Below are positions 1-62,824 of a stretch of 64,000 nucleotides of DNA, piece by piece. Positions within the stretch are counted from its first letter, which is position 1, and each line of letters opens with the position of its first letter. Below the pieces are notes generated by a model that ran no database searches, was not told the origin of the DNA, and worked only from the letters and a program-made list of their open reading frames with translations. A program made the translations under genes and the position numbers. The DNA comes from Butyricimonas sp. Marseille-P3923 (GTDB lineage: Bacteria > Bacteroidota > Bacteroidia > Bacteroidales > Marinifilaceae): the NCBI RefSeq assembly GCF_900184685.1, contig NZ_FXXL01000006.1, forward strand, positions 1,054,001 to 1,118,000, in the 5' to 3' direction.

Positions 1-2
1 AG

Positions 3-2513
3 CCGCTTTTTATCGTGGACGGTTTTGAACAGACTATCGAGAAGGTGATGGACATGGATATGAACCGGGTGGAGTCTATCACGACGTTGAAAGACGCGAC
101 GGCAAAGGCGCTTTACGGTTCCAAGGGGGCGAACGGCGTGGTTGTTATCGAGACCAAACGTCCGGCGATCGGTAAGATGACGGTAAGTTATACCGGGAGT
201 ATGGATATCCAAGCCCCGGATTTAAGTAGTTATAATTTGTGTAACGCGTGGCAGAAACTGGAAGTGGAGCGTTTGTCCGGGGTATATACCTCGTCCACGA
301 ATCACCCGGTGAGTCAACAGCGGTTGGATGAATTGTACGCGGGATTGAATAAAGAGGTAGAGCGGGGTGTCAATACCTATTGGTTGAGCAAACCGTTACG
401 TACCGGGATCGGGCACAAGCACTCGTTGAATTTCGAGGGTGGCGATGAGTTTATCCGGTATAATATTAACGTGAGTTACAACAACGTGGCGGGTGTTATG
501 AAGGGTTCCAACCGGGAAACATTCGGCGGAGGTTTTACTTTTTCTTATCGTTACAAATCTTTGCTTTTCCGGGAACAACTTTCTTTGTTGCATAATAAAG
601 CCGATAATTCCCCTTACGGGTCATTTTCCGATTACGCGAAACTGAACCCGTACTGGAGGGCGAACAATGAAGATGGGACAATTCGGGAGGTGTTGAACCC
701 GGTAGAGGTGGCCTACGGGAGTAACCCGGTTTACAACCCGCTAATAAATAAAACTTTAAACACGAAAGACGAAAGTAAATACACGGATATAACAAATAAT
801 TTTTATATCGAGTGGAGTGTCTTTGATGATTTGAAAGCCACGGGGCGTTTCGGTTTCACTTCCCGCACGGATGAATCGGATATTTTTTACCCGAGGGATC
901 ACACGATGTTCCGTGATATCGATATCACGGACGACGCTTATTTCGAGAGAGGTCAATACACGAAAGGGAACGGGAAGATGACAACCCTAACGACGGATAT
1001 CGCTTTGAATTACTCGAAGATTTGGGATAAACACGTGATGTTTGCCAACGCTCAATGGAGCCTCGGTGAAACGAAATCGGAATCCGTTACTTTTCAAGCG
1101 GAGGGATTTGCCAATGACAAGTTGGATTACATCACTCATGCCCAACAGTATCTTGCCGGAGGAAAACCGAGTGGAAGCGAGTCTTTGTCCAGAGAAACGA
1201 GTTTTCTGGCTTCCGTGAACTATTCTTACGATTCCCGCTACCTGTTCGACGGTAACTATCGGGCGAACGCGTCTTCGTTGTTCGGGGCTGATCGCCGCTG
1301 GGGACATTTTTGGTCTGTTGGTGCGGGTTGGAACATGCACAACGAGAAATTCTTGAATGACATTGGGTGGTTGCAACGTTTGAAATTGCGTGTTTCCACG
1401 GGCTACACGGGTTCACAGAACTTCAATTCTTATCAGGCGGTTTCTACTTACAAGTATTATTCAAACGAAGTTTACGATAACATTATCGGTTCTTACTTGA
1501 TGAGTTTGGCTAATCCCGACCTGCAATGGCAAAAGACACAGGATAATAACGTCGGAATCGATGTATCATTATTTGGTCGTGTCGATTTGACTTTTGATTA
1601 TTATATCAAGAACACGAGTAACTTGTTGACCCCGGTAACGTTACCGCCTTCCGCCGGGTTCTCTTCTTACACAGAGAATCTGGGAAAATCACAGAACAAA
1701 GGATTCGAGTTGCAGGTAAGCGTGCGCGCGATTAATGATGCGGATAAGGATTTGCACTTGAACGTGTTCGGTTCTTTGATGCACAACACGAACAAGATCA
1801 AAGAGATTAACGAGGCTCTGTCAAGCATGAATGATGATAAGGATTCCGACAAAGATTTCAATTATGATCAAAGTACGAAAGAAAAGACCACGAAACCGTC
1901 CGTTCGCTACGCCGAGGGACAATCGATGAGTGCCATTTGGGCGGTGCGGTCTTTGGGGATCGACCCGGGTACCGGAAACGAGCTGTTTCTGACAAAGGAC
2001 GGGCAACTGACTTACACGTGGGATGCCAACGATCAAGTCGTTTGCGGTGACGAGTTGCCGAAATACACGGGAACATTCGGTTTTAACTTGGATTGGAAAG
2101 GTTTCTCTGTAAATACTTCTTTTTATTTCCGTTTGGGCGGACAGATGTATAATCAAACGTTGGTAGACAAGGTTGAGAATTGCGATATGACTTACAACGT
2201 GGACCGTCGGGTGTATACCGGAAGATGGACCACACCGGGACAAAAAGCCGAGTTCAAGAGAGTTACCGACCCGAATTATTTCACGCGCCCGACATCTCGC
2301 TTCGTGCAGGATTTGAGCGAGTTGCAAATGACTTCTCTGAATGTCGGTTACGATTTCAGAAATTGTAAGTTCATGCAGAATGGTATTATCGAGCGGTTGA
2401 AATTGTCTTTCTACATGAATGATGTATTTCGTCTGTCAACGGTGAAGACGGAAAGAGGTACGGATTACCCGTTTGCCCGTTCTTTCTCGTTCCAGCTGCA
2501 AGCGACATTCTAA
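3..2513 (+). CDS. SusC/RagA-family TonB-dependent outer membrane transporter, 5' end outside window (locus A)
   Basis: The reading frame is open from the window edge; the first complete codon is at 3, so the signal peptide, STN domain, carboxypeptidase-like domain and most of the plug are missing. 836 residues are visible. They start at the end of the plug (FIVDGFE, then YGSKGANGVVVIETK, the usual SusC plug signature) and continue through the 22-strand barrel to a terminal Phe (QLQATF), as expected of an outer membrane barrel. The protein would form the channel that is lidded by the SusD encoded 45 bp downstream. It is closely similar along its length to the locus B SusC (13279-16623), for example at GVNTYWL(S/A)KPLRTG and SAIWAVRSLGIDP, so the two are paralogs. 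The substrate is not readable from the sequence. The assignment to SusC is firm. Confidence 0.95.
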   Translation, partial: PLFIVDGFEQTIEKVMDMDMNRVESITTLKDATAKALYGSKGANGVVVIETKRPAIGKMTVSYTGSMDIQAPDLSSYNLCNAWQKLEVERLSGVYTSSTNHPVSQQRLDELYAGLNKEVERGVNTYWLSKPLRTGIGHKHSLNFEGGDEFIRYNINVSYNNVAGVMKGSNRETFGGGFTFSYRYKSLLFREQLSLLHNKADNSPYGSFSDYAKLNPYWRANNEDGTIREVLNPVEVAYGSNPVYNPLINKTLNTKDESKYTDITNNFYIEWSVFDDLKATGRFGFTSRTDESDIFYPRDHTMFRDIDITDDAYFERGQYTKGNGKMTTLTTDIALNYSKIWDKHVMFANAQWSLGETKSESVTFQAEGFANDKLDYITHAQQYLAGGKPSGSESLSRETSFLASVNYSYDSRYLFDGNYRANASSLFGADRRWGHFWSVGAGWNMHNEKFLNDIGWLQRLKLRVSTGYTGSQNFNSYQAVSTYKYYSNEVYDNIIGSYLMSLANPDLQWQKTQDNNVGIDVSLFGRVDLTFDYYIKNTSNLLTPVTLPPSAGFSSYTENLGKSQNKGFELQVSVRAINDADKDLHLNVFGSLMHNTNKIKEINEALSSMNDDKDSDKDFNYDQSTKEKTTKPSVRYAEGQSMSAIWAVRSLGIDPGTGNELFLTKDGQLTYTWDANDQVVCGDELPKYTGTFGFNLDWKGFSVNTSFYFRLGGQMYNQTLVDKVENCDMTYNVDRRVYTGRWTTPGQKAEFKRVTDPNYFTRPTSRFVQDLSELQMTSLNVGYDFRNCKFMQNGIIERLKLSFYMNDVFRLSTVKTERGTDYPFARSFSFQLQATF

Positions 2514-2558
2514 CAGGTGGTAGGCTATGAATATACTAAACAATTATTCGACTAGATT

Positions 2559-3992
2559 ATGAGAAAAGGTTTTTTAAAATATAGTTTGTGGATTTTGGTT
2601 TGTTTCAGCATGGTGGCGTGTAACGACTGGCTGGACGTGAAACCGAAAACCGAGATGGAAGCCGAAGATATGTTCTCCACCGAGGATGGGTTCAAGGATG
2701 CTTTGGCGGGCGTTTATACGGCGATGACAAAATCTTCTCTGTATGGTAGAGAGTTGACTTACGGGATAGTGGATGTGGTCGCCCAGCAATGGGGAGGAAT
2801 CGGCTCCAATCATCGTTACGCGAACGCGTTGAAATACGAGTACGAGGCAACGAACACGAAACCGATTATCGACACGCTTTGGAACGGGTTGTATAACGCC
2901 ATAGCGAACGCTAATAGTATTCTGGCTTATATTGATAATTCAAAAGCCGTGTTCACGGGGGATAATAAGCAGATTATAAAAGGGGAAGCGTTGGCTTTGA
3001 GGGCTTTCATGCACTTTGATTTGTTACGTTTGTTTTGTGCGGATGCGACAAGTGCTTCCGCTGAAGACGGGATTCCTTATGTCAATGAACTCACGAAGCA
3101 GGTAACCGTGTCGGTTTCCCCGAAAGATGTCACGGAACAAATTATCAAGGATTTGAAAGAAGCGGCTACGTGTCTGGCAAATGATCCTGTGCTGACGGGA
3201 CGGGAAGTTTCCGCGAGTGATGACAACGGTTATTTGATAAATCGGAATTATCACTTGAATTATTACGCGGTTATGGGGTTGATGGCACGCGTGTACATGT
3301 ACGCGGGCAATCCGACCGAAGCCCGTAAGAGTGCCATTGCCGTGATCGAGGCTCACGAAAACCGGGAGTTGTTTCCTTGGAGCACGAGGGGCGACGTGTT
3401 GAACGAGAAAAAGGAGTTGCGTGACCGTACTTTTTCCACGGAACATCTTTTCGCTTTAAATATAAGGAAGTTGAAAGATTATATCGAGGGGTCTTTCACG
3501 GGTACGAGCGTGCCTTTATTGACGCGGATTTCCCCGGGTAGTTTGTTTGTCGCGGGGAATGATTTTCGTAGTTTCTTCTTCGAAACCACGAATTATATAG
3601 GGGATGTACCTTCTAAACTGTGGCAGATGGATGGAATTACGGTGGAAGGTCAATTGTACACGCCCAAGCGTGACCGTATGCCGATGATCCGTCTAAGCGA
3701 GATGTATTATATCGTGGCGGAGTGTGATAAGGCAACGCCTTCCGTGGCGGTAGCCCGATTGAACGAAGTGCTCGCTAACCGGGGATATGAAGACACGGAG
3801 TTGTTGGATGCTTCGGTTGTGAATAGCGGGGATGCCGTGCAGGAAGAAATCTTGAAGGAATACCAGCGTGAATTTATTTGTGAAGGACAACTCTTTTTCT
3901 ATCATAAGCGGATGAAGGATGAGAAATTGAATGGCTACACGGTGAATTATGTATTCCCGAAACCGGAGAATGAACTGGAATTTGGAAAATAA
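2559..3992 (+). CDS. SusD/RagB-family surface lipoprotein (locus A)
   Basis: A 477-residue SusD-like protein. It has a lipoprotein signal peptide with the lipid-modified cysteine at residue 21, followed directly by NDWLDVKP, the standard SusD opening. The N-terminal region carries GFKDALAGVYTAM, the middle has GEALALRAFMHFDLLRLF (a TPR-like helix typical of SusD), and near the end MPMIRLSEMYYIVAECD, a family hallmark. SusD proteins sit on the cell surface as the lid of the SusC channel and bind the ligand. The length fits the family. It follows susC by 45 bp and precedes the DUF4843 gene by 12 bp, so the three are probably one transcript. Acidic residues after the cysteine suit surface export. 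Ligand unknown. Confidence 0.95.
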   Translation: MRKGFLKYSLWILVCFSMVACNDWLDVKPKTEMEAEDMFSTEDGFKDALAGVYTAMTKSSLYGRELTYGIVDVVAQQWGGIGSNHRYANALKYEYEATNTKPIIDTLWNGLYNAIANANSILAYIDNSKAVFTGDNKQIIKGEALALRAFMHFDLLRLFCADATSASAEDGIPYVNELTKQVTVSVSPKDVTEQIIKDLKEAATCLANDPVLTGREVSASDDNGYLINRNYHLNYYAVMGLMARVYMYAGNPTEARKSAIAVIEAHENRELFPWSTRGDVLNEKKELRDRTFSTEHLFALNIRKLKDYIEGSFTGTSVPLLTRISPGSLFVAGNDFRSFFFETTNYIGDVPSKLWQMDGITVEGQLYTPKRDRMPMIRLSEMYYIVAECDKATPSVAVARLNEVLANRGYEDTELLDASVVNSGDAVQEEILKEYQREFICEGQLFFYHKRMKDEKLNGYTVNYVFPKPENELEFGK

Positions 3993-4004: not shown

Positions 4005-4745
4005 ATGAAATTCATGATAAGATATTTTTTATGGCTTCCGGTATGTTTGACCTTTGTGTTGACTGCCTGCGAGAAAGAAAAAATCCCGTATTACAATGAT
4101 GTGGAGCGAGTGAATTTTAATTACACGAGTATGGGGTTACAAAGGGACACGATTGATGTCGTTTATGGCTTCGTGCTGGATGAATATACCGACATTGACC
4201 TTGAGATATTGTTGATGGGGTATGCTAAAAATTACGACCGGACAATCGGGCTGAAGATCACGAGCGAGAATGGAGCTGTTGCCGGGACTAATTACGAGAT
4301 ACAAGACCGGCTTGTGCTGCCTAAAAACGAGGTTTCCGTAAAAATACCGTTGAAAGTCTTGCGTTCAAGTGATTTGCTGGAGGACGGGGCTAAATCTTTC
4401 TTGGTTGAACTCGTGGATTCCGATGATTTGAAAGCGGGACTTCGGACAACACTTTTTATCACGGTTTCGGATGACATTCCGGAAGAGTGGGTAGGTGGTG
4501 AAAATTGGTTTATGAATAAAGTGAGTGATTATTTCGGGGAGTGTAATCAAACTAAATACTTGTTCGTTTACGAGCAGTTAGGTGTTTGGGATTTTTCAGC
4601 TTGGAATCTGATGGGATTCATGGGTAATGATGCGAAATTCTCGCCGGCGAAGAGAATCTTGAAAGAAAAATTGGCAGAGTACGAAGCCGAGAACGGGCCT
4701 CTGGTAGATCCTAAAACAGGTGATCGAGTAACATTCCCGGATTAA
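4005..4745 (+). CDS. DUF4843-type surface lipoprotein (locus A)
   Basis: A 246-residue lipoprotein with the lipobox cysteine at residue 22 (LTACEKEK). The body is predicted beta-rich. A segment reading AGTNYEIQDRLVLPKNEVSVKIPLKVLRSSDL, cited here only by its outline, lies around residues 90-130 and is typical of DUF4843 proteins encoded directly after susD in Bacteroidales. It is probably an accessory surface lipoprotein of the SusCD complex; family knowledge gives no biochemical activity. The acidic and lysine residues straight after the cysteine resemble a lipoprotein surface-export signal. Homologs occur at the same operon position in loci B, C and D, although those of C and D are shorter (175 and 188 residues). 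The family call rests on position and resemblance, not on a profile search. Confidence 0.75.
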   Translation: MKFMIRYFLWLPVCLTFVLTACEKEKIPYYNDVERVNFNYTSMGLQRDTIDVVYGFVLDEYTDIDLEILLMGYAKNYDRTIGLKITSENGAVAGTNYEIQDRLVLPKNEVSVKIPLKVLRSSDLLEDGAKSFLVELVDSDDLKAGLRTTLFITVSDDIPEEWVGGENWFMNKVSDYFGECNQTKYLFVYEQLGVWDFSAWNLMGFMGNDAKFSPAKRILKEKLAEYEAENGPLVDPKTGDRVTFPD

Positions 4746-4763: not shown

Positions 4764-6272
4764 ATGAACAAGAGATTTATAATACAGATCATTTTTTTAC
4801 TGGTTGCCATCTTCGGTTTATGTAATTGCTATGATGACAAGGGTAATTATGATTACAAGGAATTAACGTCGTTGCAGATCGACACGACAGGTATTAAGGC
4901 ACAACAAACGGCGTATCAGTTCGAGAATTTTAAAGTACCCGTGGATGTGAAATATGCGGGGAACAAGGAAGATCTGTCGTACGAGTGGAAAATTTACCCG
5001 CAAGTCCCCCAGAAGGATGAAGATGTGACTAAATATGATTCGGCAGTCGTGTTGTACACGAAAGCGGTGTTCGATACGATTATTTACGAGATACCGGGCG
5101 CGTATTATCTGACCTTGACGGTGACCGACCATCTTCAGAATATTCAAGAGGCTTTCACGTTAAAGTTGAATGTTGAAACTCTCGTTTCCCGCGGGTTGTG
5201 CGTGATGGATGAGAATAACGGTATTTATGATTTGCATTTGATAAAGTCTGCCAAGTTATTGCCGGATATCTTGGAATCGGACGAACAGACTTATTATCAT
5301 GTCTATTCCGGTGTTAATGATCTGGAAATAACGAATGGGAAATTTCTGGGATTTGTTTCTGTTGATGCAGCAACGGATAATAAAGCACTTTATTTCTTTA
5401 CTGAAACCGGAGGTGTAACCTTGGATATTGATACATACGAGATTATGTCGAGTGATTATCCGTCGTGGTTCTCTTTCCCGATGAGTATAACTCCCGCTCC
5501 CGGGGCTTTTATGGTAACAAGTCGCCCGATAGAGATGCTTATCAATAACGGATTGGTTTACGTTTGGGATCATGCGTCTATGGGGGTGACAACCTTTGGC
5601 GACCGGTTGAACGGGGATTATGAAGCGGCTCCTTATTTGCCGCGTATATCTACCAGTACATTCTCAACCGTGATTTTCGACAAGAAAAACAAACGTTTTG
5701 CTCCTATAAATCAATTCGGTTCACAGGTGGGTGAGTTTGAATCTACTGCGAGTGGTGAGTTCGATTTGGATGATATCGGTGTTTCCAAAGAGTTGAAGTT
5801 TATGGATAACGGTTTCAATTCTTACACTTATGCTGTTTTTTACGACACGCAAACATCCGAGTACGCATTGTACGTGATGGATTTCTCCGGAACGGAAGCC
5901 TCGCCGGTGAAGAAATATGCGATGGATAACTGTGAAGGAATAAACGGGGATTCTTATTACGCTTTCGGAAATCAAGGAAACGTGTGTTTCTATTCTTCCG
6001 GTAGTGACTTGTGCCAGTATAAATATGCTTCGACAAATGCGGGAACTGTCGTTCACTCGTTTGCCGGGGAAACAATTACCGGGATTGAAGTATTTAAAAA
6101 CTCCGGACATGCTCAAGACGGGAAACTGTTGATTGTTTCGACGTTGACAGGTGGCGGAGAAGGAAAAATCTACTTGGTAGGATTCAATGAATTGACGGGT
6201 GCGATCGTGGACGGAACCGATAAACCTTATGGCGGTTTCGGTAAGATCGTTGATATATTGTACAAAGAATAA
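4764..6272 (+). CDS. PKD-like family surface lipoprotein (locus A)
   Basis: A 502-residue exported protein whose mature start is CYDDKGNYDYKEL, with the likely lipidated cysteine at residue 22 (the preceding LCN is not a textbook lipobox). Residues about 30-130 look like a PKD-type beta-sandwich (EDLSYEWKIYPQ, then an AYYLTLTVTD strand). The remaining 370 residues are beta-rich with recurring Gly/aromatic strands and may form a propeller; that is a guess. Bacteroidales PKD-like lipoproteins of this length are commonly encoded beside susD and DUF4843 genes and are thought to be surface ligand-binding or scaffolding subunits. The locus B homolog (18876-20429) shares the CYDDKGNYDY start and the C-terminal YGGFGK/YGFGK motif. 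Loci C and D lack this gene. Confidence 0.75.
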   Translation: MNKRFIIQIIFLLVAIFGLCNCYDDKGNYDYKELTSLQIDTTGIKAQQTAYQFENFKVPVDVKYAGNKEDLSYEWKIYPQVPQKDEDVTKYDSAVVLYTKAVFDTIIYEIPGAYYLTLTVTDHLQNIQEAFTLKLNVETLVSRGLCVMDENNGIYDLHLIKSAKLLPDILESDEQTYYHVYSGVNDLEITNGKFLGFVSVDAATDNKALYFFTETGGVTLDIDTYEIMSSDYPSWFSFPMSITPAPGAFMVTSRPIEMLINNGLVYVWDHASMGVTTFGDRLNGDYEAAPYLPRISTSTFSTVIFDKKNKRFAPINQFGSQVGEFESTASGEFDLDDIGVSKELKFMDNGFNSYTYAVFYDTQTSEYALYVMDFSGTEASPVKKYAMDNCEGINGDSYYAFGNQGNVCFYSSGSDLCQYKYASTNAGTVVHSFAGETITGIEVFKNSGHAQDGKLLIVSTLTGGGEGKIYLVGFNELTGAIVDGTDKPYGGFGKIVDILYKE

Positions 6273-6336: not shown

Positions 6337-8211
6337 ATGAAAAAGAATAGTAGAATCGGAACGTGGTTGAGTGTTGTTCTCCTGTTGGTGATGTTTGGAT
6401 TGCCGGTGAAAGCACAGAAGTATAAATCGGTATTCAAGGATCTGACGTGGGAACAAGCCGCGGAGTTGGCTCAAAAGGAGGGCAAAATCGTGTTGGTCGA
6501 CGCGATGATGAAGGCTCGTACTCCCGAAGACCGGAAGAAACGGGATGAGGCGGAGCGGAAATTGTTCTCCGTGCCGGGGATTATGGATTTCTGTAACCGG
6601 AATATCGTGGCCATTCATATAGATATGGGAACGGAGGCGGGGAAGGCATTTGCCCCGAAGCTGGTGATGAATATGTACCCCACTTACGGTTTCTTTATGC
6701 CGGACGGGGATATTCTGGGTGTCGTCAGTCCTTTTATTTTAGCACAGAAACCGGAAGTTTTTTTGGAAAAGGGACAAAAGGCGGTGAAAGAAGCGGAAGT
6801 AAAGAGAAGTAACAAACGTTCTATTCTATTCGAGGAAATCGGGTTCAAGGAGGCGTTGGTGAAGGCGAAGAAGGAAAAGAAGTTGATTTTTATCGATGCT
6901 TATACCGATTACTGCCAACCGTGCGTGATGATGGTGAAGAATATCTTCTCGTTGGATAAAGTGGCTGATTTTTACAACGAGAATTTTATCAATCTGAAGT
7001 TGGATTTCGGTAAAGAGAAGGAATTGGCACAGAAATACGGGACATCGGGGTATCCCGCTTTTGTTTTCGTGAACGGGGATGGTAAGCTCGTGTATTTGGC
7101 AGGTGGTTACACCGAAGCGGAACCTTTTATCGGGTACGGGCAGGAGGCTTTGAAAAAAGCACAGGGAATAGAATTTACCGCCGGGAGCTGGAACGAGATT
7201 CTGGCAAAGGCAAAACAAGAGAATAAATTGATATTTATGGATTGCTATACCTCTTGGTGCGGACCTTGTAAACAAATGGCTCAAACGACCTTTGTCGATC
7301 CTGATGTTACCGCTTTGTTCAACGAGAAGTTTATTAACGTGAAGGTGGACATGGAAAAGGGCGAGGGGAAAGAATTGAGCAAGCGTTATGGCGTGAGAGC
7401 TTATCCCACGTTGAATTTTATTCATGGTGACGGGGAAATAGTGCATTGCGTGGTAGGAGGATTGGGTGCGGATGAATTAATCAGGCAAGGGAAACTCGTG
7501 TTGGAAGGTAAAGGATTAAGTTATATGCAAAACGAGTATGCCGACGGAAACCGGGAGCCGGAGTTTATAACTTCTTATCTGGAAGTGCTCGGGATGGCTA
7601 ACTTGGGAGAGGACGCACAGAAGGTGACGTTGGAGTATTTCGCCACGCTCGACCGGGAGAAATTGAACGAGAAAAAGTATTGGGATATCTTTGTCCGGTA
7701 CGTGAATGATGTGGATAGTGATTTGTTCCGGTATGTATACGCAAACCGGGAACATCTCGTTTCACTTTACGGGGAACAACAAGTGAATCGTAAGATACAA
7801 TCCGTGTGGGCAACCGGGGCGAATCGGTTCGTGCAGGAAAAAGAGGGCGCAAAGGTGTTGGATAAGAAAGGTTTTGAGCGTTACGTGAAGCGGATGAAAA
7901 AGGCGAAAGTTGACGGTTGGGAAGACATCGCGGCGAACGCGAGAATGAATAATGCCGAGAAGACCGGGGACTGGAAAACTTACGTGACTGAGGGTGACGC
8001 GCTGTTGAAAAATGGCAAGGTTTCGGATTTGTTATTGTATAACTGGGGGCTAAGGATAACCAAGAACTGCAAAGACAAGGAGTTGAGGGCACGTGCAGCC
8101 CGTTGGTTCGAGAATGCCGCCGCCGAATCGGCAAAAAAAGAAGCCGAGGGAAAAGCGGGTATGATGTCGTATCGTACCTATTTCGAGAAATTGGCGGCTG
8201 AATTAAAATAA
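6337..8211 (+). CDS. Exported protein with three tandem thioredoxin-like domains
   Basis: 624 residues with a signal peptide ending near VKAQ (residues 1-27). Three thioredoxin-fold units follow. Unit 1 (about 30-140) has the fold pattern (KIVLVDAMMKAR, MYPTYGFFMPDG) but no CxxC. Unit 2 (about 165-275) has CQPC at 193-196. Unit 3 (about 280-395) has CGPC at 308-311 in the context YTSWCGPCKQM and a cis-proline YPT. A helical C-terminal region of about 230 residues completes it. It should act in the periplasm as a thiol-disulfide oxidoreductase or a redox-linked scaffold; partners are unknown. The unit 3 plus C-terminal region aligns with the N-terminal half of the 761-residue locus B protein. 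The stop codon is followed in the same frame by the next gene, so only one stop separates the two frames. Confidence 0.85.
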   Translation: MKKNSRIGTWLSVVLLLVMFGLPVKAQKYKSVFKDLTWEQAAELAQKEGKIVLVDAMMKARTPEDRKKRDEAERKLFSVPGIMDFCNRNIVAIHIDMGTEAGKAFAPKLVMNMYPTYGFFMPDGDILGVVSPFILAQKPEVFLEKGQKAVKEAEVKRSNKRSILFEEIGFKEALVKAKKEKKLIFIDAYTDYCQPCVMMVKNIFSLDKVADFYNENFINLKLDFGKEKELAQKYGTSGYPAFVFVNGDGKLVYLAGGYTEAEPFIGYGQEALKKAQGIEFTAGSWNEILAKAKQENKLIFMDCYTSWCGPCKQMAQTTFVDPDVTALFNEKFINVKVDMEKGEGKELSKRYGVRAYPTLNFIHGDGEIVHCVVGGLGADELIRQGKLVLEGKGLSYMQNEYADGNREPEFITSYLEVLGMANLGEDAQKVTLEYFATLDREKLNEKKYWDIFVRYVNDVDSDLFRYVYANREHLVSLYGEQQVNRKIQSVWATGANRFVQEKEGAKVLDKKGFERYVKRMKKAKVDGWEDIAANARMNNAEKTGDWKTYVTEGDALLKNGKVSDLLLYNWGLRITKNCKDKELRARAARWFENAAAESAKKEAEGKAGMMSYRTYFEKLAAELK

Positions 8212-8247
8212 GTCGTGTTGAATTTTAATGGATTTAATAATAATAGT

Positions 8248-9426: not shown

Positions 9427-9454
9427 ATAATACAAGAGTTTGAGGGATACATGT

Positions 9455-9486
9455 ATAACGAGAGATATTATGCTTCTTTTCGATCG
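9455..9486 (+). repeat. Copy 1 of a duplicated 3' element
   Basis: The 16 bp at 9455-9470 (ataacgagagatatta) recur exactly at 22762-22777, and the following 16-17 bp are similar in both places. Both copies lie 24-29 bp after the stop codon of homologous tlpA genes in loci A and B, so they are probably remnants of the duplication that made the two loci. Confidence 0.6.
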
Positions 9487-54428: not shown

Positions 54429-54445
54429 TAAAAAAACAGATGGTT

Positions 54446-55115: not shown

Positions 55116-56204
55116 ATGAAAAAGTTTGTATTGTTGTTTACTGGTATGTTGATGATGGCGTCTGTGTTTGCGCAGACTAATTTTCAAGAGTTGACGCTGG
55201 AGAAAGCGTTGGAGAAAGCGAAGGGCGAGAATAAGAAAGTTTTCGTGGATTGTTACACGTCATGGTGCGGACCGTGTAAGATGATGGCGGAGAAGGTGCT
55301 TCCCTTGAAAGAGGTGGGCGAATATATGAACGAACGTTTCGTGTGTATCAAAGTAGACATGGAGAAAGGGGAAGGACCGGATCTCGCCCAGAAATATAAG
55401 GTTACGGCTTACCCGACTTTCCTGGTATTGCAGGCAGATGGCAGTCTGATGCAGCGTGTCGTGGGTGGCACGTTGGACGGGAAAGAGTTTATTCAGAAAG
55501 TGGATGCCGCTTTTGATGAAAATTCGGCAGCTAATTTGGAAGCCGAATACGCCGCGGGGAATCGTGAGATGGATTTCTTGTTGAAATACACGAAAGCTTT
55601 GATTACGGCTTGTGATTTGGATAAAGCGAAAGCAGTGGCGCAGGATATCATTGGTTCTTTGGAAGATAGCCAGAAATACACGGAGCCTTACTGGTTTATT
55701 TACGAGGATGTAAGTTTGTCACCGATCGGCTCCGGGAATATGAATTATTTCTTGAAACACACGGAGCAATTTCGTGAAGGTGTTGGTATCGAGAAGGTGA
55801 ATAAGAAATTAGCTTCTTTATTTGATTTGCAACTGGAGGAGATTATCCGTGGAAAGAATGCAACCGCCACTTTGGCTGATGTTGAGGGTATCCAAAAAAC
55901 ATTGGATGCTTACAAGTTGACCGGACAGGATTATTTGTACGAGTATATCGAGTTGATTAAAGGGATGAAAACGGGAAACACGGATAAGGTGTTGGAAATG
56001 TGTAAAAAGGTGTTCCCGAAAATGGCGGACGAAAAGATTGCTTACTTGTATTTTATGCCGATTCTGAGTTTAAGGAATAAGTGGAGCAAGAAGCAGGCGA
56101 AGGAGTTGATATCCTTAACCGACCGTTTGATAGAACAAGTGGAGATGTCCCAGTTGAAAAATTCGTTAGGCAATTTTAAGACCGGGGTGCTCGAGAAGAT
56201 TTGA
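55116..56204 (+). CDS. Exported thioredoxin-fold protein with helical C-terminal domain (locus D)
   Basis: 362 residues with signal peptide to about 20 (MMASVFAQ). Thioredoxin domain about 22-140, with YTSWCGPCKMM (CGPC at 51-54) and cis-Pro motif TAYPTFLVL. The helical C-terminal part contains EPYWFIYEDVSLSPIGSGNM, matching locus C. The two proteins are of the same length class and probably orthologous in function. Predicted periplasmic. A terminator-like hairpin follows within the operon, so the genes after it may be expressed at a lower level. Confidence 0.87.
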   Translation: MKKFVLLFTGMLMMASVFAQTNFQELTLEKALEKAKGENKKVFVDCYTSWCGPCKMMAEKVLPLKEVGEYMNERFVCIKVDMEKGEGPDLAQKYKVTAYPTFLVLQADGSLMQRVVGGTLDGKEFIQKVDAAFDENSAANLEAEYAAGNREMDFLLKYTKALITACDLDKAKAVAQDIIGSLEDSQKYTEPYWFIYEDVSLSPIGSGNMNYFLKHTEQFREGVGIEKVNKKLASLFDLQLEEIIRGKNATATLADVEGIQKTLDAYKLTGQDYLYEYIELIKGMKTGNTDKVLEMCKKVFPKMADEKIAYLYFMPILSLRNKWSKKQAKELISLTDRLIEQVEMSQLKNSLGNFKTGVLEKI

Positions 56205-56241
56205 TTTGGTGCGTGCTATTTGAAATAACAGAATGGTTTGT

Positions 56242-56279
56242 ACAGGTGGGGATTCGCATGAAGTGGAGTCCCCCGCTGT
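56242..56279 (+). terminator. Attenuator-like terminator inside locus D
   Basis: Arms acaggtgggga (56242-56252) and tcccccgctgt (56269-56279) pair with two mismatches and are followed by a T run (ttttta). It lies between the thioredoxin gene and the TlpA lipoprotein gene, which would be reached only by readthrough. Confidence 0.55.
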
Positions 56280-56296
56280 TTTTATGTTATCGAGAT

Positions 56297-57640
56297 ATGA
56301 TGAGGAATTGTTTGATAGGTTTGGTTTTGTCGGTCGTGTTGGGCGCTTGTGGTGTAGAGGAGTGTACAAGGTTTAAAGTTGTTTTCCCGGTGGGAGAGAA
56401 GAGAAAGGTGGAGTTGGAAACTGTGGAAGGAGGGCGTAGAGCGATTGTGTTCGAGGTGAAGGATTCGATACGGGAGGGGGTTATGGTACTTCCTTTGTCA
56501 AGGGGGGTGTTTGCCCGTTTGTGGGTGGGCGATATGCCTTACACGGTGTGGATGCGACCGGGTAAACCGTGGTGTGCAACTTTCATGTGGAATGAATGGT
56601 TGTTCGAGGGGGAGGATGTGGATGTGAACGGTTATTTGAACACTTCTCGCGGGTTGCAAATGTATTTCACGGATTATTATAGAATCCCGAACAAGGAGTT
56701 CCGGACGAAATTGGAGATCGTGAGTTCTGAAAAGGCGAATACATTGCAGAATGCCGCGTTGGATGTGGAGTTTGTAGAGCAGGAGGCGAAACGACTCCGG
56801 TTTATTCGAGATCGACATGTGGCTTGTGGGGTGGTGTATGGCGAGATAAAAGATTGGAACGAGAATTTGCGGGAGAATACCATGCAGGTGTTGCGAGAGG
56901 GACTCCGGGAGGATAGTTTGTCTTGGGGAATTCCGGAATACAGGGAGATGATTGATAAGTCGTTGATGGCATTGGCTAAATTGGAGGGAGCGGGGAAGTC
57001 GGGACATGATTTGGTGTTGGAGGTGGTGAATCGGGTTGTGGAGAATTACAAGGATAAGCGGTTGGTGGAGTATGTCGTGAACAGGAATGTACTGGAGTAT
57101 GTCAAGAACGTGGGTGTGGAGAATGCGGAAGAGCTTGACCGTGTTTTTCGGGAACACGTGCGGGATACAGGACTCGTGGCGGCGTATGATAAGGTGTATG
57201 TTACCGGAAGAAAATTGATGAAAGGGCAACCTGCCGTGCCGTTTACTTTCAAGGACGTGGAGGGGAATGAGGTGAGTTTGTCGGATTTCAAGGGACGGTA
57301 CGTGTATATCGATTTGTGGGCCACGTGGTGTGGACCTTGCGTGGCAGAGATTCCTCATTTGAAGAAATTGGAGGAGCATTTCCGGGGACGGAATATTTGT
57401 TTCGTGAGTATTTCCAGTGATAAGAAGTGGGAAACGTGGGAGAAGTATGTACGAGAGAGAGAAATGGAGGGGGTACAGCTTCACATGGGGAAGGATGAGA
57501 AATATATGAAGGAGATTCATTGTGAAGGGATTCCCCGCTTTTTGCTGATCGATAGGGACGGTAATTTTATAAATGCCAATATGACTCGTCCCTCGGACGT
57601 GAGGACACGGGAGGTGTTGGAAGGCTTGGAGGGGGTGTAA
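56297..57640 (+). CDS. TlpA-family thiol-disulfide oxidoreductase with lipoprotein signal
   Basis: 447 residues from ATG 56297. The signal peptide ends in a lipobox with cysteine at 18 (VVLGACGVEE), so the protein should be lipid-anchored, and the acidic residues after it could send it to the outer membrane surface. Residues about 20-320 form a large N-terminal region with an initial beta part and a helical part, of a kind common in front of TlpA domains in Bacteroidota. The TlpA domain (about 320-440) has LWATWCGPCVAEIPHLKKLEEHF (CGPC at 345-348) and the motif EGIPRFLLIDRDG. This is the only clearly lipid-anchored oxidoreductase in the window. Neighbours: thioredoxin gene upstream past the hairpin, MG2/plug gene downstream. 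Confidence 0.85.
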   Translation: MMRNCLIGLVLSVVLGACGVEECTRFKVVFPVGEKRKVELETVEGGRRAIVFEVKDSIREGVMVLPLSRGVFARLWVGDMPYTVWMRPGKPWCATFMWNEWLFEGEDVDVNGYLNTSRGLQMYFTDYYRIPNKEFRTKLEIVSSEKANTLQNAALDVEFVEQEAKRLRFIRDRHVACGVVYGEIKDWNENLRENTMQVLREGLREDSLSWGIPEYREMIDKSLMALAKLEGAGKSGHDLVLEVVNRVVENYKDKRLVEYVVNRNVLEYVKNVGVENAEELDRVFREHVRDTGLVAAYDKVYVTGRKLMKGQPAVPFTFKDVEGNEVSLSDFKGRYVYIDLWATWCGPCVAEIPHLKKLEEHFRGRNICFVSISSDKKWETWEKYVREREMEGVQLHMGKDEKYMKEIHCEGIPRFLLIDRDGNFINANMTRPSDVRTREVLEGLEGV

Positions 57641-57724
57641 GATGAAGCGGGTGATGCTTTGATATTTTTATGAATGTATTGTTTTGGAATATTTTGTGTA
57701 TTGTATGTAACAAAAATATTTGCA

Positions 57725-60334
57725 ATGAAAAAGATCGGGTTGTTGATGATTATTGTTTTTGGGGTGTATGTTTACGCTTTCCGGGGAGTTGCGGGATTTG
57801 AGGAACAGGTGGTGAAGAATTTTAATTCTTACGTGCGGTGTCCTCATGAGAAAGTGTATTTGCATACGGATAAAAGTGCTTACGTGGTGGGGGAGAACGT
57901 GTGGTTTAGGGCGTACGGGGTACACGGGTTAGTGAATATTCCCGAGATACTTAGCCGTTTCGTGTACGTGGATTTGGTGGATAAGCGGGATTCGTTGGTG
58001 CGACGGGTAAAAGTGGGATTGAGGGATTCTTGCTTTTACGGGCAATTGGCTTTGCCGGAGGATTTGGCACAGGGGGAATATTGTTTGCGGGCGTATACTT
58101 ATAATTTGCAAAATTTGGGGTCTGAATATTTGTTCAAGAAAAAGATACGAGTCGTGAATCCGCGTGATTCAAAAGTAAAAACGGATGTTTCTTATCGGAA
58201 AAATGAAAATGGGTATGTTGCCGAGATAAAGTTCACGGACGGCAATGGAGACCCGTACGGGAGAGTCCCGGTATTGTGTAATATTGGGGAGAGGAAATTG
58301 GGCGTCCCGGGAAAGAAAATGTACACGAACGAGCGGGGTGTGCTTGAGATGGAAGTGGATTCTGCCGGGCAGGTGATCAACGTGGCATTTGCAAACGGGA
58401 AACCGTTCGTTTTTGATCGTTATATACGGGTACCCGAGTTGCAGAATGATTTTGATGTGCAGTTTTTTCCGGAAGGGGGGACTTTACTCGTGGGTAATCG
58501 TCAACAGGTGGCGTTTAAAGCGGTTGGTGCAGATGGGCATCCGGTGGAGGTGACGGGAACCGTGTATCAGGATTCCGTCCCTTTGTTCGAGATGCAGTCA
58601 GTGCATGACGGTATGGGGAGTTTTATGTTGCCTGTGAATTGGGGCAGGAAGTTTCAAGTAGTCGTGAAAAACGAGGATGGGATAGAAAAATCGTTTGATT
58701 TGCCGGAATCACGGCTTGACGGATGGGGGATGGCCGTGACGAAAGAAGAGGGGAATATGGTGGATTATCTGGTGATGAGGGGAGAGGATGCCGTGTTGCC
58801 GGGTGAATTGTACGTGTTGGTACATAGCCGGGGGGTGGTGTTTGATATCCGACCGGTGACGGGGAAGACGAGAGGACGGATAGATCGGAATTTGTTGCCG
58901 GAGGGGATAGCCCAAGTGGTGTTAATGGATGGTGCCGGGAAAGTGTACAGCCAGCGGCTTTTCTTCGTGAGACATAATGAGCGTCCGGAATTGAGGGTAA
59001 AAGCTAATCAACGAAATTATGTGGCAAGGGAACTCGTGGAGTTGGAAATCGGTTTTGAAGAAGGGGGGCAGGAGGGGGTGTTTTCTCTTTCGGTGACGGA
59101 TGAGCAGAAGGTGTTCACGGATTCTTTAGAGGATAATATTATGTTGAATCTGTTGTTGACTTCGGAGTTGAAGGGATATATTGAACATCCCGCTTATTAT
59201 TTTAACGAGTGGACGGAGAAAACGGAACATCATTTGGATTTAGTGATGCAAACACATGGTTGGACTCGTTTTGACCCGGGAAAGTTGGCTTCCGGTGAGT
59301 TCCCGAACGAGAAACACGAGATTGAGGTGGCACAAATGGTTTCCGGGCAGGTGAAGAATTATTGGGGGAATAAATCCGTGGGAGCCAATATTATATTGCT
59401 CTCGAATTACGGGCAGTATTATATGACGGAAACGGATGAAGAGGGAAATTTTACGGTGGATAATATTTTATTTAATGATAGTACTCGCTTTATCGTGCAG
59501 GCGATGAGTGCTAAAGGACGTCAACGTGTAGAAGTTGCTGTACGGGAGGATGAGTTGATAGCTCCGGTTTATGATTTGCCTGACACGGAGGTGGAGAAGA
59601 AAAAGGAAGAGGAATTTTTGAATAAGTTCGGTTTGAATTACTATTACGAGAATGGAGAAAAGGTTTATGTGTTGGAAGAGGTGAACGTGAACAGGAGAAA
59701 ACGAAATAAAACGTATTCGTTTTATGATAATTTGGCTGAGCGCCAACTGGATTCGGTCAAGTTGGCGATGTATGCGGAACGGAACGATGTGTTTCAAGTT
59801 TTATTGGCAGAAGTTCTGGGAATTTCATTTACCAAGGATACGACCGGGGATGTGGTACTGATGAACGGTCGTCCGATGCGGGTGGTGGTGAATGAAATGG
59901 AGGCGGATATGATGCTCGTGAAATCCATTCCGGTGAAAATGTTGTTGAATATTGCGGTCATCGGTCAGGAGAGAGCCCGAGTCCTTTTGGGAGATAGCGG
60001 TTTGGGTGGTATTTTGGCGATTACGGCGAAACCGGGTTATTGGATGGGTAGTTCTAGGGAACGCTTGAATTTGGTGTCGTTCAAATTGTTGGGATATCAG
60101 GAACCGGAGGAGTTTTATATGCCTCGATATGACGTGGATTCGGTGCGTCGGGATAGTCGTTATGACGAGCGTACGACAATTTATTGGAATCCTATGGTAA
60201 AGGTGAAACGTGGGGAAAGTACGAAGGTGTCTTTTTATACGGCAGATACGTACGGGACTTATTCGGTGACGGTGGAAGGGGTGACTCGGGATGGTGTAGT
60301 GTGTAGGAAGAGAGGAACTTTAGTATTAAAATAA
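57725..60334 (+). CDS. Exported MG2-like protein with carboxypeptidase-like and barrel-less TonB plug-like regions
   Basis: 869 residues from ATG 57725 (signal peptide MKKIGLLMIIVFGVYVYAF; an earlier frame start at 57674 lacks one). Residues about 35-130 hold the MG2-like segment VYLHTDKSAYVVGENVWFRAY. A carboxypeptidase-regulatory-like segment follows at about 540-620 (VSGQVKNYWGNKSVGANIILLSNYGQY, outline). Residues about 660-790 resemble a TonB-receptor plug (VLEEVNV, and LLGDSGLGGILAITAKPG, comparable to SusC YGSRGANGVVVIT), but no barrel follows: the protein ends about 90 residues later. Related Bacteroidota proteins are annotated as plug-domain proteins without a known role. It could bridge SusC or TonB to the periplasmic redox proteins, which is inference. 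Confidence 0.75.
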   Translation: MKKIGLLMIIVFGVYVYAFRGVAGFEEQVVKNFNSYVRCPHEKVYLHTDKSAYVVGENVWFRAYGVHGLVNIPEILSRFVYVDLVDKRDSLVRRVKVGLRDSCFYGQLALPEDLAQGEYCLRAYTYNLQNLGSEYLFKKKIRVVNPRDSKVKTDVSYRKNENGYVAEIKFTDGNGDPYGRVPVLCNIGERKLGVPGKKMYTNERGVLEMEVDSAGQVINVAFANGKPFVFDRYIRVPELQNDFDVQFFPEGGTLLVGNRQQVAFKAVGADGHPVEVTGTVYQDSVPLFEMQSVHDGMGSFMLPVNWGRKFQVVVKNEDGIEKSFDLPESRLDGWGMAVTKEEGNMVDYLVMRGEDAVLPGELYVLVHSRGVVFDIRPVTGKTRGRIDRNLLPEGIAQVVLMDGAGKVYSQRLFFVRHNERPELRVKANQRNYVARELVELEIGFEEGGQEGVFSLSVTDEQKVFTDSLEDNIMLNLLLTSELKGYIEHPAYYFNEWTEKTEHHLDLVMQTHGWTRFDPGKLASGEFPNEKHEIEVAQMVSGQVKNYWGNKSVGANIILLSNYGQYYMTETDEEGNFTVDNILFNDSTRFIVQAMSAKGRQRVEVAVREDELIAPVYDLPDTEVEKKKEEEFLNKFGLNYYYENGEKVYVLEEVNVNRRKRNKTYSFYDNLAERQLDSVKLAMYAERNDVFQVLLAEVLGISFTKDTTGDVVLMNGRPMRVVVNEMEADMMLVKSIPVKMLLNIAVIGQERARVLLGDSGLGGILAITAKPGYWMGSSRERLNLVSFKLLGYQEPEEFYMPRYDVDSVRRDSRYDERTTIYWNPMVKVKRGESTKVSFYTADTYGTYSVTVEGVTRDGVVCRKRGTLVLK

Positions 60335-60362: not shown

Positions 60363-60884
60363 ATGAAAAAGATTTTATTTGTTGTTTTATTGTGTTTGCC
60401 TTATTTCGGATGGGCGCAGATGAAAGCTGAGGTGTTGCCTTTGCGAGATACGGCAGAATTGAAAGTTGGGGATCGTGTCCCCGTGTTTGTTTTCCGGGAT
60501 ACGGCGAACCGAGAAATGACGTTGAAGCAGTTCAAGGGGAAATACGTGGTGATTGACGTGTGGGCATCGTGGTGTTATCCTTGTAAACAGGAATATCCGG
60601 CGTTAAAAAAATTGGCAGAGGAATACAAAGATAAAAAGATCGTGTTCGTGAGTCTTTCCTGTGATACGGAAAAGCAACGTTGGTTGAATGAATTGTGGTG
60701 GGGAAAGATGAGCGGTTATCAATGGTGGATAGCCGGGGACGAGTCTGCAATGATCGCTTTTCGGGTAGGAGCGATTCCCCGGTTGATATTATTAGATAAG
60801 AAAGGGCGGGTAATGAATTTGAAATTACCAAAGCCTTCAAGCCCGGAGTTTGAAAAGATTTTGGAGGGATTGAAGGGAATTTGA
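60363..60884 (+). CDS. Small TlpA/ResA-like thiol-disulfide oxidoreductase
   Basis: 173 residues, signal peptide to about 18 (YFGWAQ). A single thioredoxin fold with VWASWCYPCKQEYPALKKL (CYPC at 71-74) and the cis-Pro motif AIPRLILLDKKGR. The dipeptide between the cysteines, YP, differs from the GP of the others and may shift the redox potential. It follows the MG2/plug gene by 28 bp and is the last gene of locus D, ending 28 bp before a terminator. Confidence 0.88.
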   Translation: MKKILFVVLLCLPYFGWAQMKAEVLPLRDTAELKVGDRVPVFVFRDTANREMTLKQFKGKYVVIDVWASWCYPCKQEYPALKKLAEEYKDKKIVFVSLSCDTEKQRWLNELWWGKMSGYQWWIAGDESAMIAFRVGAIPRLILLDKKGRVMNLKLPKPSSPEFEKILEGLKGI

Positions 60885-60912
60885 AGTTAATTGTAATTCA
60901 TGTTTTTTGTAT

Positions 60913-60948
60913 GGTAAGGTCTTGTGTTTCCAAATACGAGACCTTACC
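60913..60948 (+). terminator. Terminator after locus D
   Basis: A perfect 10-bp stem, ggtaaggtct and agaccttacc, with a 16-nt loop, followed by gtatttatt. It begins 28 bp after the small TlpA gene and lies before the locus E sigma gene. Confidence 0.75.
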
Positions 60949-60986
60949 GTATTTATTATATATTCTATTTTATCCGAAGATTGTTG

Positions 60987-61015: not shown

Positions 61016-61600
61016 ATGAAAGTAGATAATGATGCGAAACAATTGATAATCGAACTTCGAGGAGGAAAAGAAGATGCTTTTGCCCAAGTGTTTCGTATGT
61101 ATTATAATCCTTTGTTGAATTATGCCGGTCGTATTCTTCATGATGCCGAATTGGCAAATGATTTGGTACAAGAGACTTTTTGCAATTTGTTCGAGAGGCG
61201 TAAAGAATTGAAGGAAGATCTTCAGTTACGATCTTATCTTTATAAAACAGTATACAATCGTTGTTTGGATGTGATTAAGCACCAGAAAGTAGAAAGTAAT
61301 TATGCTAATCAGGAATTATTGGACTTCTATTTCTCGAAAGTGATTGAAACCCCGGAGGCGGAGTTGGCTTTGTTAGAAGAGGATTTGAAGGGAGCGCTTC
61401 AAGAGGCTATCGCTAAATTGCCCGAACGGTGTCGGGAAATATTTGAATTGAGTAAAATAGAAGGATTATCCAATAAACAAATCGCGGAAGAATTGAATAT
61501 CTCCGTGAAAACCGTTGAGGCTCAGATGACGATTGCTTTCACCCGATTGCGGAAAGAGTTGGGATGGTTGTTGTGCGTCATTTTTTTTCAAAATTTCTAG
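61016..61600 (+). CDS. ECF RNA polymerase sigma factor (locus E)
   Basis: 194 residues. Region 2 about 18-85 (FAQVFRMYYNPLLNYAGRIL, then DLVQETFCNLFERRKEL), region 4 about 130-185 (LPERCREIFELSKIEGLSNKQIAEELNISVKTVEAQMTIA). It is the expected partner of the FecR protein at 61658 (57 bp downstream). The end is hydrophobic, LLCVIFFQNF. By its position it opens a new SusCD locus that runs out of the window. Confidence 0.93.
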   Translation: MKVDNDAKQLIIELRGGKEDAFAQVFRMYYNPLLNYAGRILHDAELANDLVQETFCNLFERRKELKEDLQLRSYLYKTVYNRCLDVIKHQKVESNYANQELLDFYFSKVIETPEAELALLEEDLKGALQEAIAKLPERCREIFELSKIEGLSNKQIAEELNISVKTVEAQMTIAFTRLRKELGWLLCVIFFQNF

Positions 61601-61657
61601 AAAATCTTTAGGGGTAAATTAGTCTTTAGTCGTTATAGAAATATAAAACGAAAAATA

Positions 61658-62824
61658 ATGACTTGTAACTTTGATAAAGATGAATTGATTTTAAAAGTTT
61701 TGGATGGGAAAGCAAGCCCGGAAGAAATTTTGGCTTTATCTCGCTGGATTGAAACAGATTCCGCGAATGAAGAGTATTTTAATCAATTGAAAAAAGCATG
61801 GAACTTGACGAGCGGGCCTATTTCTTCTAAAGAAAGGGAAGAGAAGGAGTTTCGCTATTATATGAACTATATTAGATCAAAGCGTAAGATTTATCGTTTG
61901 CGTCGGATATATAAATACGTTGCGATAGTAATCTTGCCTCTATTGGTAGGTGTTGTTTATTGGTTACAAAGAGAGCGGATGCCGGAAGACGTCCAGTCTA
62001 TACCTGTTGTCGCCCGAATTGAGCCGGGAGAATATAAAGCAACTTTAATAACAGCTTCAGGAAGTACGATCTCTTTGCTTCCTTCGAATCAAGAAGATAT
62101 TCAGGTGGACGAGAATATTTCGGTGACGAACGGACAGGACGGAATAGCTTATGACAATGTAAAAGGTTCGGTTGGGTCATTACAATACAATACGTTGCAG
62201 ACGTCCAGGGGTGGAGAATATGCGGTGACATTATCGGACGGTACGCGGGTGTATTTGAATGCCGCATCGGAAATGAAGTATCCCGTGATGTTTGATGAGC
62301 GAAAGAGAGAGGTGTATTTGTCGGGAGAGGCTTATTTCGAGGTGACGAAAGACACGAACAGACCTTTTTATGTTGTAACGGATGCTGTACGGGTGAAAGT
62401 CTATGGTACGAAATTTAACGTGAATACATACAGTACCCGGGGGATTCAAACCGTGTTGGTCTCCGGTAAGGTGGGGGTTCGTGGAAAAGGTTCGAGTGAA
62501 GAATATATGATGAAGCCTTCGCAATTGGCAGAGTTTAATGACAAGGGTGTGTTTAAGGGTATTCGGGAGGTGAACCCCACGGCTTACACGGCCTGGCGAG
62601 ACGGGCGTTTTGTTTTTGAAAACGAGAGTCTGGAAGAGATATTGAATAGCTTGTCCCGTTGGTATAATGTAGATATTATCTACGGAAATGAGGAAGTGAA
62701 GAGGTATCATTTTACCGGGCATATGGAAAAATATGAAAGTATAGATATTTTTTTAAGGGCGATTAGTAAAATGGTGGGGGTAGATTTTACTATAAAAGAT
62801 AAAATAATAATAGTGACAGAATAA
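61658..62824 (+). CDS. FecR-family anti-sigma factor (locus E)
   Basis: 388 residues. Cytoplasmic sigma-binding region to about 85 (ILALSRWIETDSANEEYFNQLKKAW), membrane helix about 88-107 (VAIVILPLLVGVVYWLQ), FecR domain with GGEYAVTLSDGTRVYLNAASEMKYPV and LSGEAYF (about 221), and a DUF4974-type C-terminus (FVFENESLEEILNSLSRWYNV). The protein lacks the long charged insertion after the membrane helix seen in locus D. It should hold the locus E sigma factor and sense the SusC at 62928. Confidence 0.93.
   Translation: MTCNFDKDELILKVLDGKASPEEILALSRWIETDSANEEYFNQLKKAWNLTSGPISSKEREEKEFRYYMNYIRSKRKIYRLRRIYKYVAIVILPLLVGVVYWLQRERMPEDVQSIPVVARIEPGEYKATLITASGSTISLLPSNQEDIQVDENISVTNGQDGIAYDNVKGSVGSLQYNTLQTSRGGEYAVTLSDGTRVYLNAASEMKYPVMFDERKREVYLSGEAYFEVTKDTNRPFYVVTDAVRVKVYGTKFNVNTYSTRGIQTVLVSGKVGVRGKGSSEEYMMKPSQLAEFNDKGVFKGIREVNPTAYTAWRDGRFVFENESLEEILNSLSRWYNVDIIYGNEEVKRYHFTGHMEKYESIDIFLRAISKMVGVDFTIKDKIIIVTE

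Follow-up and report, generated by a model that had tools for sequence, protein, structure and literature searches.

SusCD loci followed by genes for exported thioredoxin-fold proteins in Butyricimonas sp. Marseille-P3923

A 64,000 nucleotide stretch of the genome of Butyricimonas sp. Marseille-P3923 (contig NZ_FXXL01000006.1, positions 1,054,001 to 1,118,000; hereafter the window) contains five loci, A to E, in which the genes of a SusC/SusD importer are followed by genes for a lipoprotein and then for exported thioredoxin-fold proteins. In general, SusCD loci are commonly interpreted as units that degrade glycans or peptides. An earlier description of the window, made without database searches (the sequence-only reading), had reported this wiring for four loci. 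Pfam and NCBIfam searches confirmed it in the same gene order and, because locus E continues likewise outside the window, all five loci (5/5) match the SusD-lipoprotein-thioredoxin pattern. We put it slightly short of an even chance that these are loci for peptide import in which periplasmic thioredoxins, supplied with electrons by DsbD, reduce the disulfides of the cargo.

The gene order of locus A is SusC-SusD-DUF4843-PKD_2-double thioredoxin-DUF4369/TlpA-SRPBCC-thioredoxin (Pfam, with fetched flanks). Locus B reads SusC-SusD-DUF4843-PKD_2-thioredoxin/TlpA fusion (Pfam and NCBIfam), locus C SusC-SusD-DUF4843-like-thioredoxin and locus D SusC-SusD-DUF4843-like-thioredoxin-TlpA-macroglobulin-like-TlpA (both Pfam). 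Locus E was completed from the flank beyond the window end and reads SusC-SusD-DUF4843-PKD_2-TlpA. SusC and SusD are adjacent in the window loci; the SusD families of A to D were found by Pfam, and loci A and E were completed with own-genome hidden Markov models (HMMs) on fetched flanking DNA. Genes for an extracytoplasmic function (ECF) sigma factor and FecR adjoin loci B to E and stand upstream of A. The STN domain of SusC scored over the cut-off in C and D and below it in B (Pfam; B to D were scanned). The features are as follows.

15..2513, + strand: locus A SusC, C-terminal 832 amino acids within the window; the open frame starts 882 bases upstream of the window, and the cut piece has no Pfam match
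2559..3992, + strand: locus A SusD lipoprotein (PF14322 5.9e-23, PF07980 1.7e-7)
4005..4745, + strand: locus A DUF4843 lipoprotein (PF16132 2.5e-15)
4764..6272, + strand: locus A PKD_2 lipoprotein (PF16407 9.5e-19)
6337..8211, + strand: locus A exported protein with two thioredoxin domains, each with CxxC (CQPC, CGPC; PF13098/PF13899, sequence)
8215..9426, + strand: locus A DUF4369-TlpA protein, WCGPC (Pfam, sequence)
9440..10030, + strand: locus A exported SRPBCC/Polyketide_cyc2-like protein (PF10604 1.8e-6); probable start inside the open reading frame (ORF), judged from sequence
10047..11279, + strand: locus A thioredoxin with long C-terminal part, WCGPC (Pfam, sequence)
11357..11908, - strand: locus B putative ECF sigma factor, divergent, judged from its sequence alone
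11999..13189, + strand: locus B FecR anti-sigma factor (PF04773, PF16344)
13279..16623, + strand: locus B SusC (TIGR04056 2.8e-189, Pfam), STN match below cut-off
16642..18087, + strand: locus B SusD (PF14322, PF07980)
18097..18864, + strand: locus B DUF4843 lipoprotein (PF16132 5.2e-27)
18876..20429, + strand: locus B PKD_2 lipoprotein (PF16407 2e-33)
20453..22738, + strand: locus B exported fusion of thioredoxin (WCVPC) and TlpA (WCGPC) (Pfam, NCBIfam, sequence)
38744..39289, + strand: locus C ECF sigma factor (PF04542, PF08281)
39661..40827, + strand: locus C FecR anti-sigma factor (Pfam)
40931..44359, + strand: locus C SusC with STN domain (Pfam)
44347..45801, + strand: locus C SusD (Pfam)
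45819..46346, + strand: locus C small lipoprotein, DUF4843-like by alignment only, without Pfam match; 38% identical to its locus D counterpart
46354..47478, + strand: locus C thioredoxin (WCGPC) with helical C-terminal domain (Pfam, sequence); AlphaFold2 pLDDT 93.9
47640..48296, + strand: locus D ECF sigma factor (Pfam)
48355..49551, + strand: locus D FecR anti-sigma factor (Pfam)
49629..52994, + strand: locus D SusC with STN domain (Pfam)
53007..54428, + strand: locus D SusD (Pfam)
54440..55009, + strand: locus D DUF4843-like lipoprotein, below the Pfam cut-off (PF16132 2.5e-4, 21.1 bits vs 34.5)
55116..56204, + strand: locus D thioredoxin with long C-terminal part, WCGPC (Pfam, sequence)
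56201..57640, + strand: locus D TlpA protein, WCGPC, with a lipobox-like stretch (Pfam, sequence)
57674..60334, + strand: locus D large exported macroglobulin-like protein between two TlpA genes (MG2 4.4e-6, CarboxypepD_reg 7.4e-4, MG4 6.2e-3, all below cut-off; no NCBIfam match)
60363..60884, + strand: locus D small exported TlpA/redoxin, WCYPC (Pfam, sequence)
60909..60952, + strand: terminator-like hairpin 3' of the last locus D gene, 20 pairs counted, T-rich tail; a consensus match only
61016..61600, + strand: locus E ECF sigma factor (Pfam)
61658..62824, + strand: locus E FecR anti-sigma factor (sequence; BLAST cluster with other FecR-type genes)
62928..64000, + strand: locus E SusC, probable start, running past the window; SusD, DUF4843, PKD_2 and TlpA follow at 66303-71676 in window numbering

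The thioredoxin counts of the sequence-only reading (three plus SRPBCC in A, one fused in B, one in C, three in D) held, but the PKD_2 lipoprotein of A and B, which lies between DUF4843 and the thioredoxins, had been overlooked. DUF4843, which had been assigned to each of the loci A to D, was found in A and B (and also in E), but the D protein remained below the cut-off and the C protein had no match. The locus D protein at 57674-60334, taken earlier for plug-like, gave no Plug match; its weak matches are to macroglobulin and CarboxypepD_reg domains instead. Within loci A to D the intergenic gaps are -13 to 106 bases (ORF starts as called; A counted from SusD on). These tight gaps, together with the hairpin after D, are consistent with one transcript per locus. 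In the operons of A to D, none of the genes matched a glycosidase, lyase, sulfatase or peptidase family in the Pfam scan. The region immediately upstream of locus A contains another SusCD-DUF4843-PKD_2 locus (C2:1046358-1050674, L069), which has no thioredoxin before the next sigma gene and forms a natural control.

In the genome as a whole, profile searches gave 125 SusD (PF07980), 49 Thioredoxin_7, 89 Thioredoxin_8 and 39 DUF4843 matches; merging the two thioredoxin families left 132 distinct sites in 5.3 Mb. A same-strand thioredoxin site was present within 4 kb downstream of 53 of the 125 SusD genes and upstream of none (0/125). Seen from the other side, 68/132 thioredoxin sites sit at most 4 kb downstream of a SusD, and the same geometry on the opposite strand occurs in 0/132. 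Thioredoxin-fold domains at 132 sites in 5.3 Mb might be so common that their genes land beside susCD by accident. However, the mean over 1000 random rotations of all sites was 5.1 at 4 kb and the highest value 47, same-strand upstream cases within that distance are absent, and the arrangement recurs in other genera. The orientation and rotation tests reject chance linkage for this genome, and we regard chance neighbourhood as extremely improbable. At a range of 8 kb, 63/125 SusD genes have a thioredoxin site downstream and 13/125 upstream (null mean 9.3, maximum 59). The first thioredoxin gene is separated from the preceding gene by a median of 29 bases, and by no more than 50 in 40/60 cases.

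In total 117 stretches around SusD genes were fetched, genes were called and the downstream operons were walked for 122 SusD; the other 3/125 were unfetched or had no called gene. The lipoprotein after SusD belonged to class LP300 in 45 operons, to DUF4843 in 29 and to LP210+LP141 in 18. Behind the lipoproteins, thioredoxins were present in 59 operons, peptidases in 34, both in 15, GldF/GldG-like ATP-binding cassette (ABC) transporters in 11 and none of these in 35, with errors both ways. The operon caller loses genes where a longer wrong-strand ORF wins (locus C was missed, and four of six empty operons have thioredoxins by position), so that 59/122 is low on that side. It may also overrun the true operon end: the housekeeping genes EF-P, IMPDH and MutS are among the partners. 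About half of the SusCD importers in this gut-type genome share a predicted operon with secreted thioredoxins.

In sister loci, the slot of the thioredoxins holds peptidase clusters, namely DUF4953 met-zincins (28 genes, HExxH in 24/28), M16, S8, aspartyl, S9, TldD, Mx1 and M13; each family label comes from one scanned member, and the small lipoprotein clusters c20 and c23 were outside that scan. Among the six aspartyl members there may be one thioredoxin-like fusion, and the tally omits a trypsin-like (L002) and an S41 (L055) peptidase in thioredoxin operons and an M6 match in a non-thioredoxin operon. For 92 further partner proteins (51 in the thioredoxin set, 41 in the other) Pfam gave mostly single cases, among the best 25 of 67 families in the thioredoxin set and the best 25 of 44 in the other. 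The sequence-only reading had thioredoxins standing instead of degradative enzymes. This was half right: such enzymes are absent from the operons of A to D, but peptidases do occur elsewhere in the genome, partly beside thioredoxins, and the two modules interchange behind a SusCD-lipoprotein core.

A tree of 121 SusD proteins (FastTree) pointed in the same direction. Along it we counted 10 changes of lipoprotein class, compared with a mean of 66 (range 59-72) for shuffled labels. Thioredoxin presence switched 30 times (shuffled labels: mean 41, range 31-47), peptidase presence 23 times (shuffled 29, range 25-32) and ABC presence 11 times (shuffled 10.7, range 9-11). From these counts, transporter and surface lipoprotein travel together, and thioredoxin and peptidase modules come and go.

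The tree also bears on the suggestion that the redox proteins service the transporter itself, by holding the cysteines of SusC, of SusD and of the surface lipoproteins in a reduced or properly paired state regardless of cargo. Export, and a place in the operon of the transporter, would suit such envelope maintenance; an unfolded client might be held by the helical C-terminal domain in the manner of the thioredoxin-TPR protein YbbN, and PKD_2 proteins of thioredoxin operons tend to have more cysteines (5.4 vs 3.6, p 0.10). However, in a comparison that covered SusD, DUF4843, PKD_2 and LP300, with SusC outside it, the thioredoxin-linked proteins were not significantly richer in cysteine (p 0.45, 0.25, 0.10 and 0.91, respectively), and we rejected the transporter-cysteine hypothesis in that form. 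About half of the SusCD loci do without thioredoxins, and with 30 changes on the SusD tree against 10 for the lipoprotein class the thioredoxins do not closely track the transporter. We consider maintenance unlikely.

Several members of these operons deserve separate mention. The LP300 class (45 genes, e.g. L080:1986-2888) gave no Pfam or NCBIfam match in the one member tested and is weakly like the zinc-metallohydrolase lipoprotein 9urd (E 0.0025). A zinc-metallohydrolase identity was rejected, with HExxH in 0/45 members; the class is perhaps a degenerate enzyme turned binding protein. Leucine-rich-repeat proteins are encoded in two SusCD operons (L012:5794-7926, L071:5440-6591), one with a BACON domain.

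CxxC was present anywhere in the protein in 90/95 thioredoxin genes of the fetched stretches, WCGPC occurring 61 times. By rule-of-thumb signal peptides the exported thioredoxins are predicted to be mostly soluble periplasmic proteins and some lipoproteins, although inspection suggests that the 28 lipoprotein calls include false ones. The closest folds to the thioredoxin domain of 46354-47478 are thioredoxins that include 2kuc, DsbH and the DsbD C-terminal domain; a fold search with the helical C-terminal domain of the protein gave non-significant helical-repeat matches only. In profile searches of the genome DsbD had one match over the cut-off, and DSBA and VKOR had none. With a predicted export signal, a thioredoxin fold, a CxxC site and DsbD in the genome, the window thioredoxins have the features of DsbD-fed reductases. 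A 653 amino acid protein with a C-terminal DsbD_N-like domain (PF11412, 1.5e-6) is encoded between PKD_2 and TlpA of one SusCD operon (L026:4346-6307).

The thioredoxins might instead form an oxidative or antimicrobial stress module, in which TlpA/redoxin proteins remove peroxides or guard against toxic compounds that attack thiols and exploit the same receptor. Several window proteins do have Redoxin/AhpC-TSA domain matches, and the GldF/GldG-like ABC transporters of 11/122 operons would fit. However, the domains retain the WCxxC thioredoxin site, and ABC genes occur together with thioredoxins in 1/59 operons only; we give this explanation little credence. The ABC genes (ATPase and/or GldF/GldG-like permease, e.g. 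L061:3213-8809) are an observation in their own right.

Under the favoured reading of peptide import with periplasmic reduction, SusC/SusD and the surface lipoproteins (DUF4843, PKD_2 or other classes) would bind and import an oligopeptide. The ECF sigma/FecR pair, signalled via the N-terminal domain of SusC, would induce each locus in response to its ligand. The exported thioredoxin/TlpA proteins of the operon would be reduced by electrons passed on from DsbD, a reductase of the inner membrane, and would in turn reduce disulfides of the incoming cargo, allowing unfolding, cutting by periplasmic peptidases and uptake. In the main thioredoxin type, the substrate is probably held by the helical C-terminal domain. 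That the thioredoxins are predicted to be exported and retain CxxC, in a genome with DsbD, suggests that disulfides are reduced in the cargo after import.

Peptides are the likeliest cargo because peptidases are many in the sister loci, the ligands of Bt2261-64 and RagAB are peptides, and glycosidases are few. The sequence-only reading had named disulfide-bonded peptides beside thiol compounds and a metal or haem ligand; the peptidases of the sister operons favour the first, and the last is retained as a low-rated rival. In it, the imported ligand would bear haem or a metal and undergo reduction in the periplasm. HBP35, a haem-binding protein of Porphyromonas gingivalis, reportedly combines thioredoxin activity with a role in haem use. 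According to PMC7999485, a thioredoxin-like protein and the hmu genes of Prevotella intermedia are iron-regulated, which would favour such a cargo. However, dozens of loci per genome are hard to square with one cofactor, and the Pfam scan found no haem- or metal-uptake family in the window operons. A haem or metal cargo therefore seems improbable.

Relatives carry the arrangement as well. A thioredoxin-alignment scan of named genomes gave 80 loci, with a SusD gene upstream on the same strand within 6 kb in 24 and downstream in 2; 13 of the 24 fall within the 20 best matches. The closest matches include Butyricimonas and Odoribacteraceae assemblies. Linked loci include Prevotellaceae, Marinifilum, Pedobacter, Chitinophaga and Croceivirga records, and ten have the order SusC-SusD-DUF4843-PKD_2-thioredoxin (the SusC HMM was seeded by one sequence). 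In four relative genomes, picked because each held a linked locus, 41/73 Thioredoxin_7 sites are SusD-linked, compared with 1/73 in the mirrored downstream position and none on the other strand. The linked sites number 24/31 in Butyricimonas, 7/17 in Marinifilum, 5/12 in Chitinophaga and 5/13 in Pedobacter; the count leaves out 2/75 sites, plus two of the six genomes searched (G005 and G006; 15 sites). A sample of 59 other genomes from the order, each from a different family and with 32 candidates scored per genome, gave a top match of 256 bits, against 312 for the weakest of 32 listed own matches. Only 2 of the 20 best places (from 21 best rows, one sharing a stretch with another) were SusD-linked; 15/20 had 6 kb of upstream sequence. 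The enrichment beside susCD expected in related genomes thus held for the four relatives and was weak order-wide. Since relatives are linked and the order-wide sample mostly is not, the arrangement is real and recurrent but patchy, and strongly expanded in the lineage of the window.

Both the choice of the four relatives and the order-wide result weigh against peptide import with reduction, as do the following observations. Likeness in fold does not reveal the redox direction of the thioredoxins, and for every locus both the peptide cargo and reduction (rather than oxidation or isomerisation) are inferences. Thioredoxin and peptidase presence are independent across the operons (Fisher odds ratio 0.79, p 0.69), so peptidases are not specific companions of thioredoxins. 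In the relatives a recognised peptidase was present in 6/61 thioredoxin-linked units (some places counted twice) vs 0/7 unlinked ones. GH92, fucosidase and melibiase matches occur among the partners of the thioredoxin set, and the other set has a fucosidase; some of the SusCD loci here may therefore serve a cargo other than peptides. Finally, the DUF4843 profile has a single match in the PDB, to a surface protein that binds dextran (9sje, weak, E 0.048), and this match lowered our confidence from even to its present level just beneath.

Among known systems, Bt2261-64 of B. thetaiotaomicron and RagAB of P. gingivalis are SusC/SusD pairs with oligopeptide ligands in solved complexes, as described in PMC7782687. 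The SusC/SusD pair is common to them and the window loci. The DUF4843 and PKD_2 profiles of this genome match no chain of the Bt2261-64 and RagAB entries, although divergence could hide homologues; an identity with the known Bt2261 and Bt2262 proteins thus gained no support. Polysaccharide utilisation loci (for starch, levan and similar glycans) have the SusC/SusD core in common with the window loci; by E-value, 8aa4 is the closest match of the locus B SusC and RagA the next, and the DUF4843 profile weakly resembles the dextran surface protein 9sje. Operons A to D, however, carry thioredoxins in place of any carbohydrate-active enzyme and have no linked glycoside hydrolase, lyase or sulfatase. 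Peptidase-linked SusCD loci differ by the peptidase gene, absent from the A to D operons and present in 34/122 operons of the same genome. As in cell-surface-signalling receptors, sigma and FecR genes stand beside an STN-bearing SusC (C and D), and the regulation is presumably similar.

DsbH, TlpA/ResA and DsbD-gamma serve cytochrome or disulfide quality control. They share an exported thioredoxin fold, WCxxC and DsbD in the genome with the window proteins, which differ in being attached locus by locus to nutrient receptors, many with a helical C-terminal domain. E. coli YbbN/CnoX likewise pairs an N-terminal thioredoxin with a C-terminal helical domain (Foldseek rank 2, E 1.8e-5), but the domain arrangement appears to differ, with a root mean square deviation of 20.8 A over the whole chain. 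YbbN/CnoX is cytoplasmic, whereas its window counterparts are predicted to be exported. The entry 2kuc, a putative disulphide isomerase of B. thetaiotaomicron, consists of one thioredoxin domain only.

Among the matches listed from the open-access PMC literature, with subscription papers outside the scope, none describes SusCD loci wired to thioredoxins. A P. intermedia proteome paper (Yu et al. 2007) is said to concern a thioredoxin locus and may be prior art. The available part of PMC10434189 treats TlpA and SusD without linking the two.

A wider proposal, which we hold to be possible but rather doubtful, is that these loci form an undescribed class that couples TonB-driven import through the outer membrane to dedicated periplasmic disulfide reduction. 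Odoribacteraceae-like bacteria would have dozens of separately regulated copies, each for a different disulfide-bonded gut or dietary peptide, and thiol chemistry rather than hydrolysis would be the locus-specific step. If reductases do accompany about half of the SusCD loci of a gut genome, a ligand class, probably disulfide-bonded peptides, has been overlooked, enzyme-only annotation misses what such loci do, and the numerous exported thioredoxins of these bacteria would gain a job.

Elsewhere in the window, and unlinked to the SusCD loci, a choloylglycine-hydrolase-family gene (PF02275 1.2e-57) is present at 25906-26955 on the - strand.

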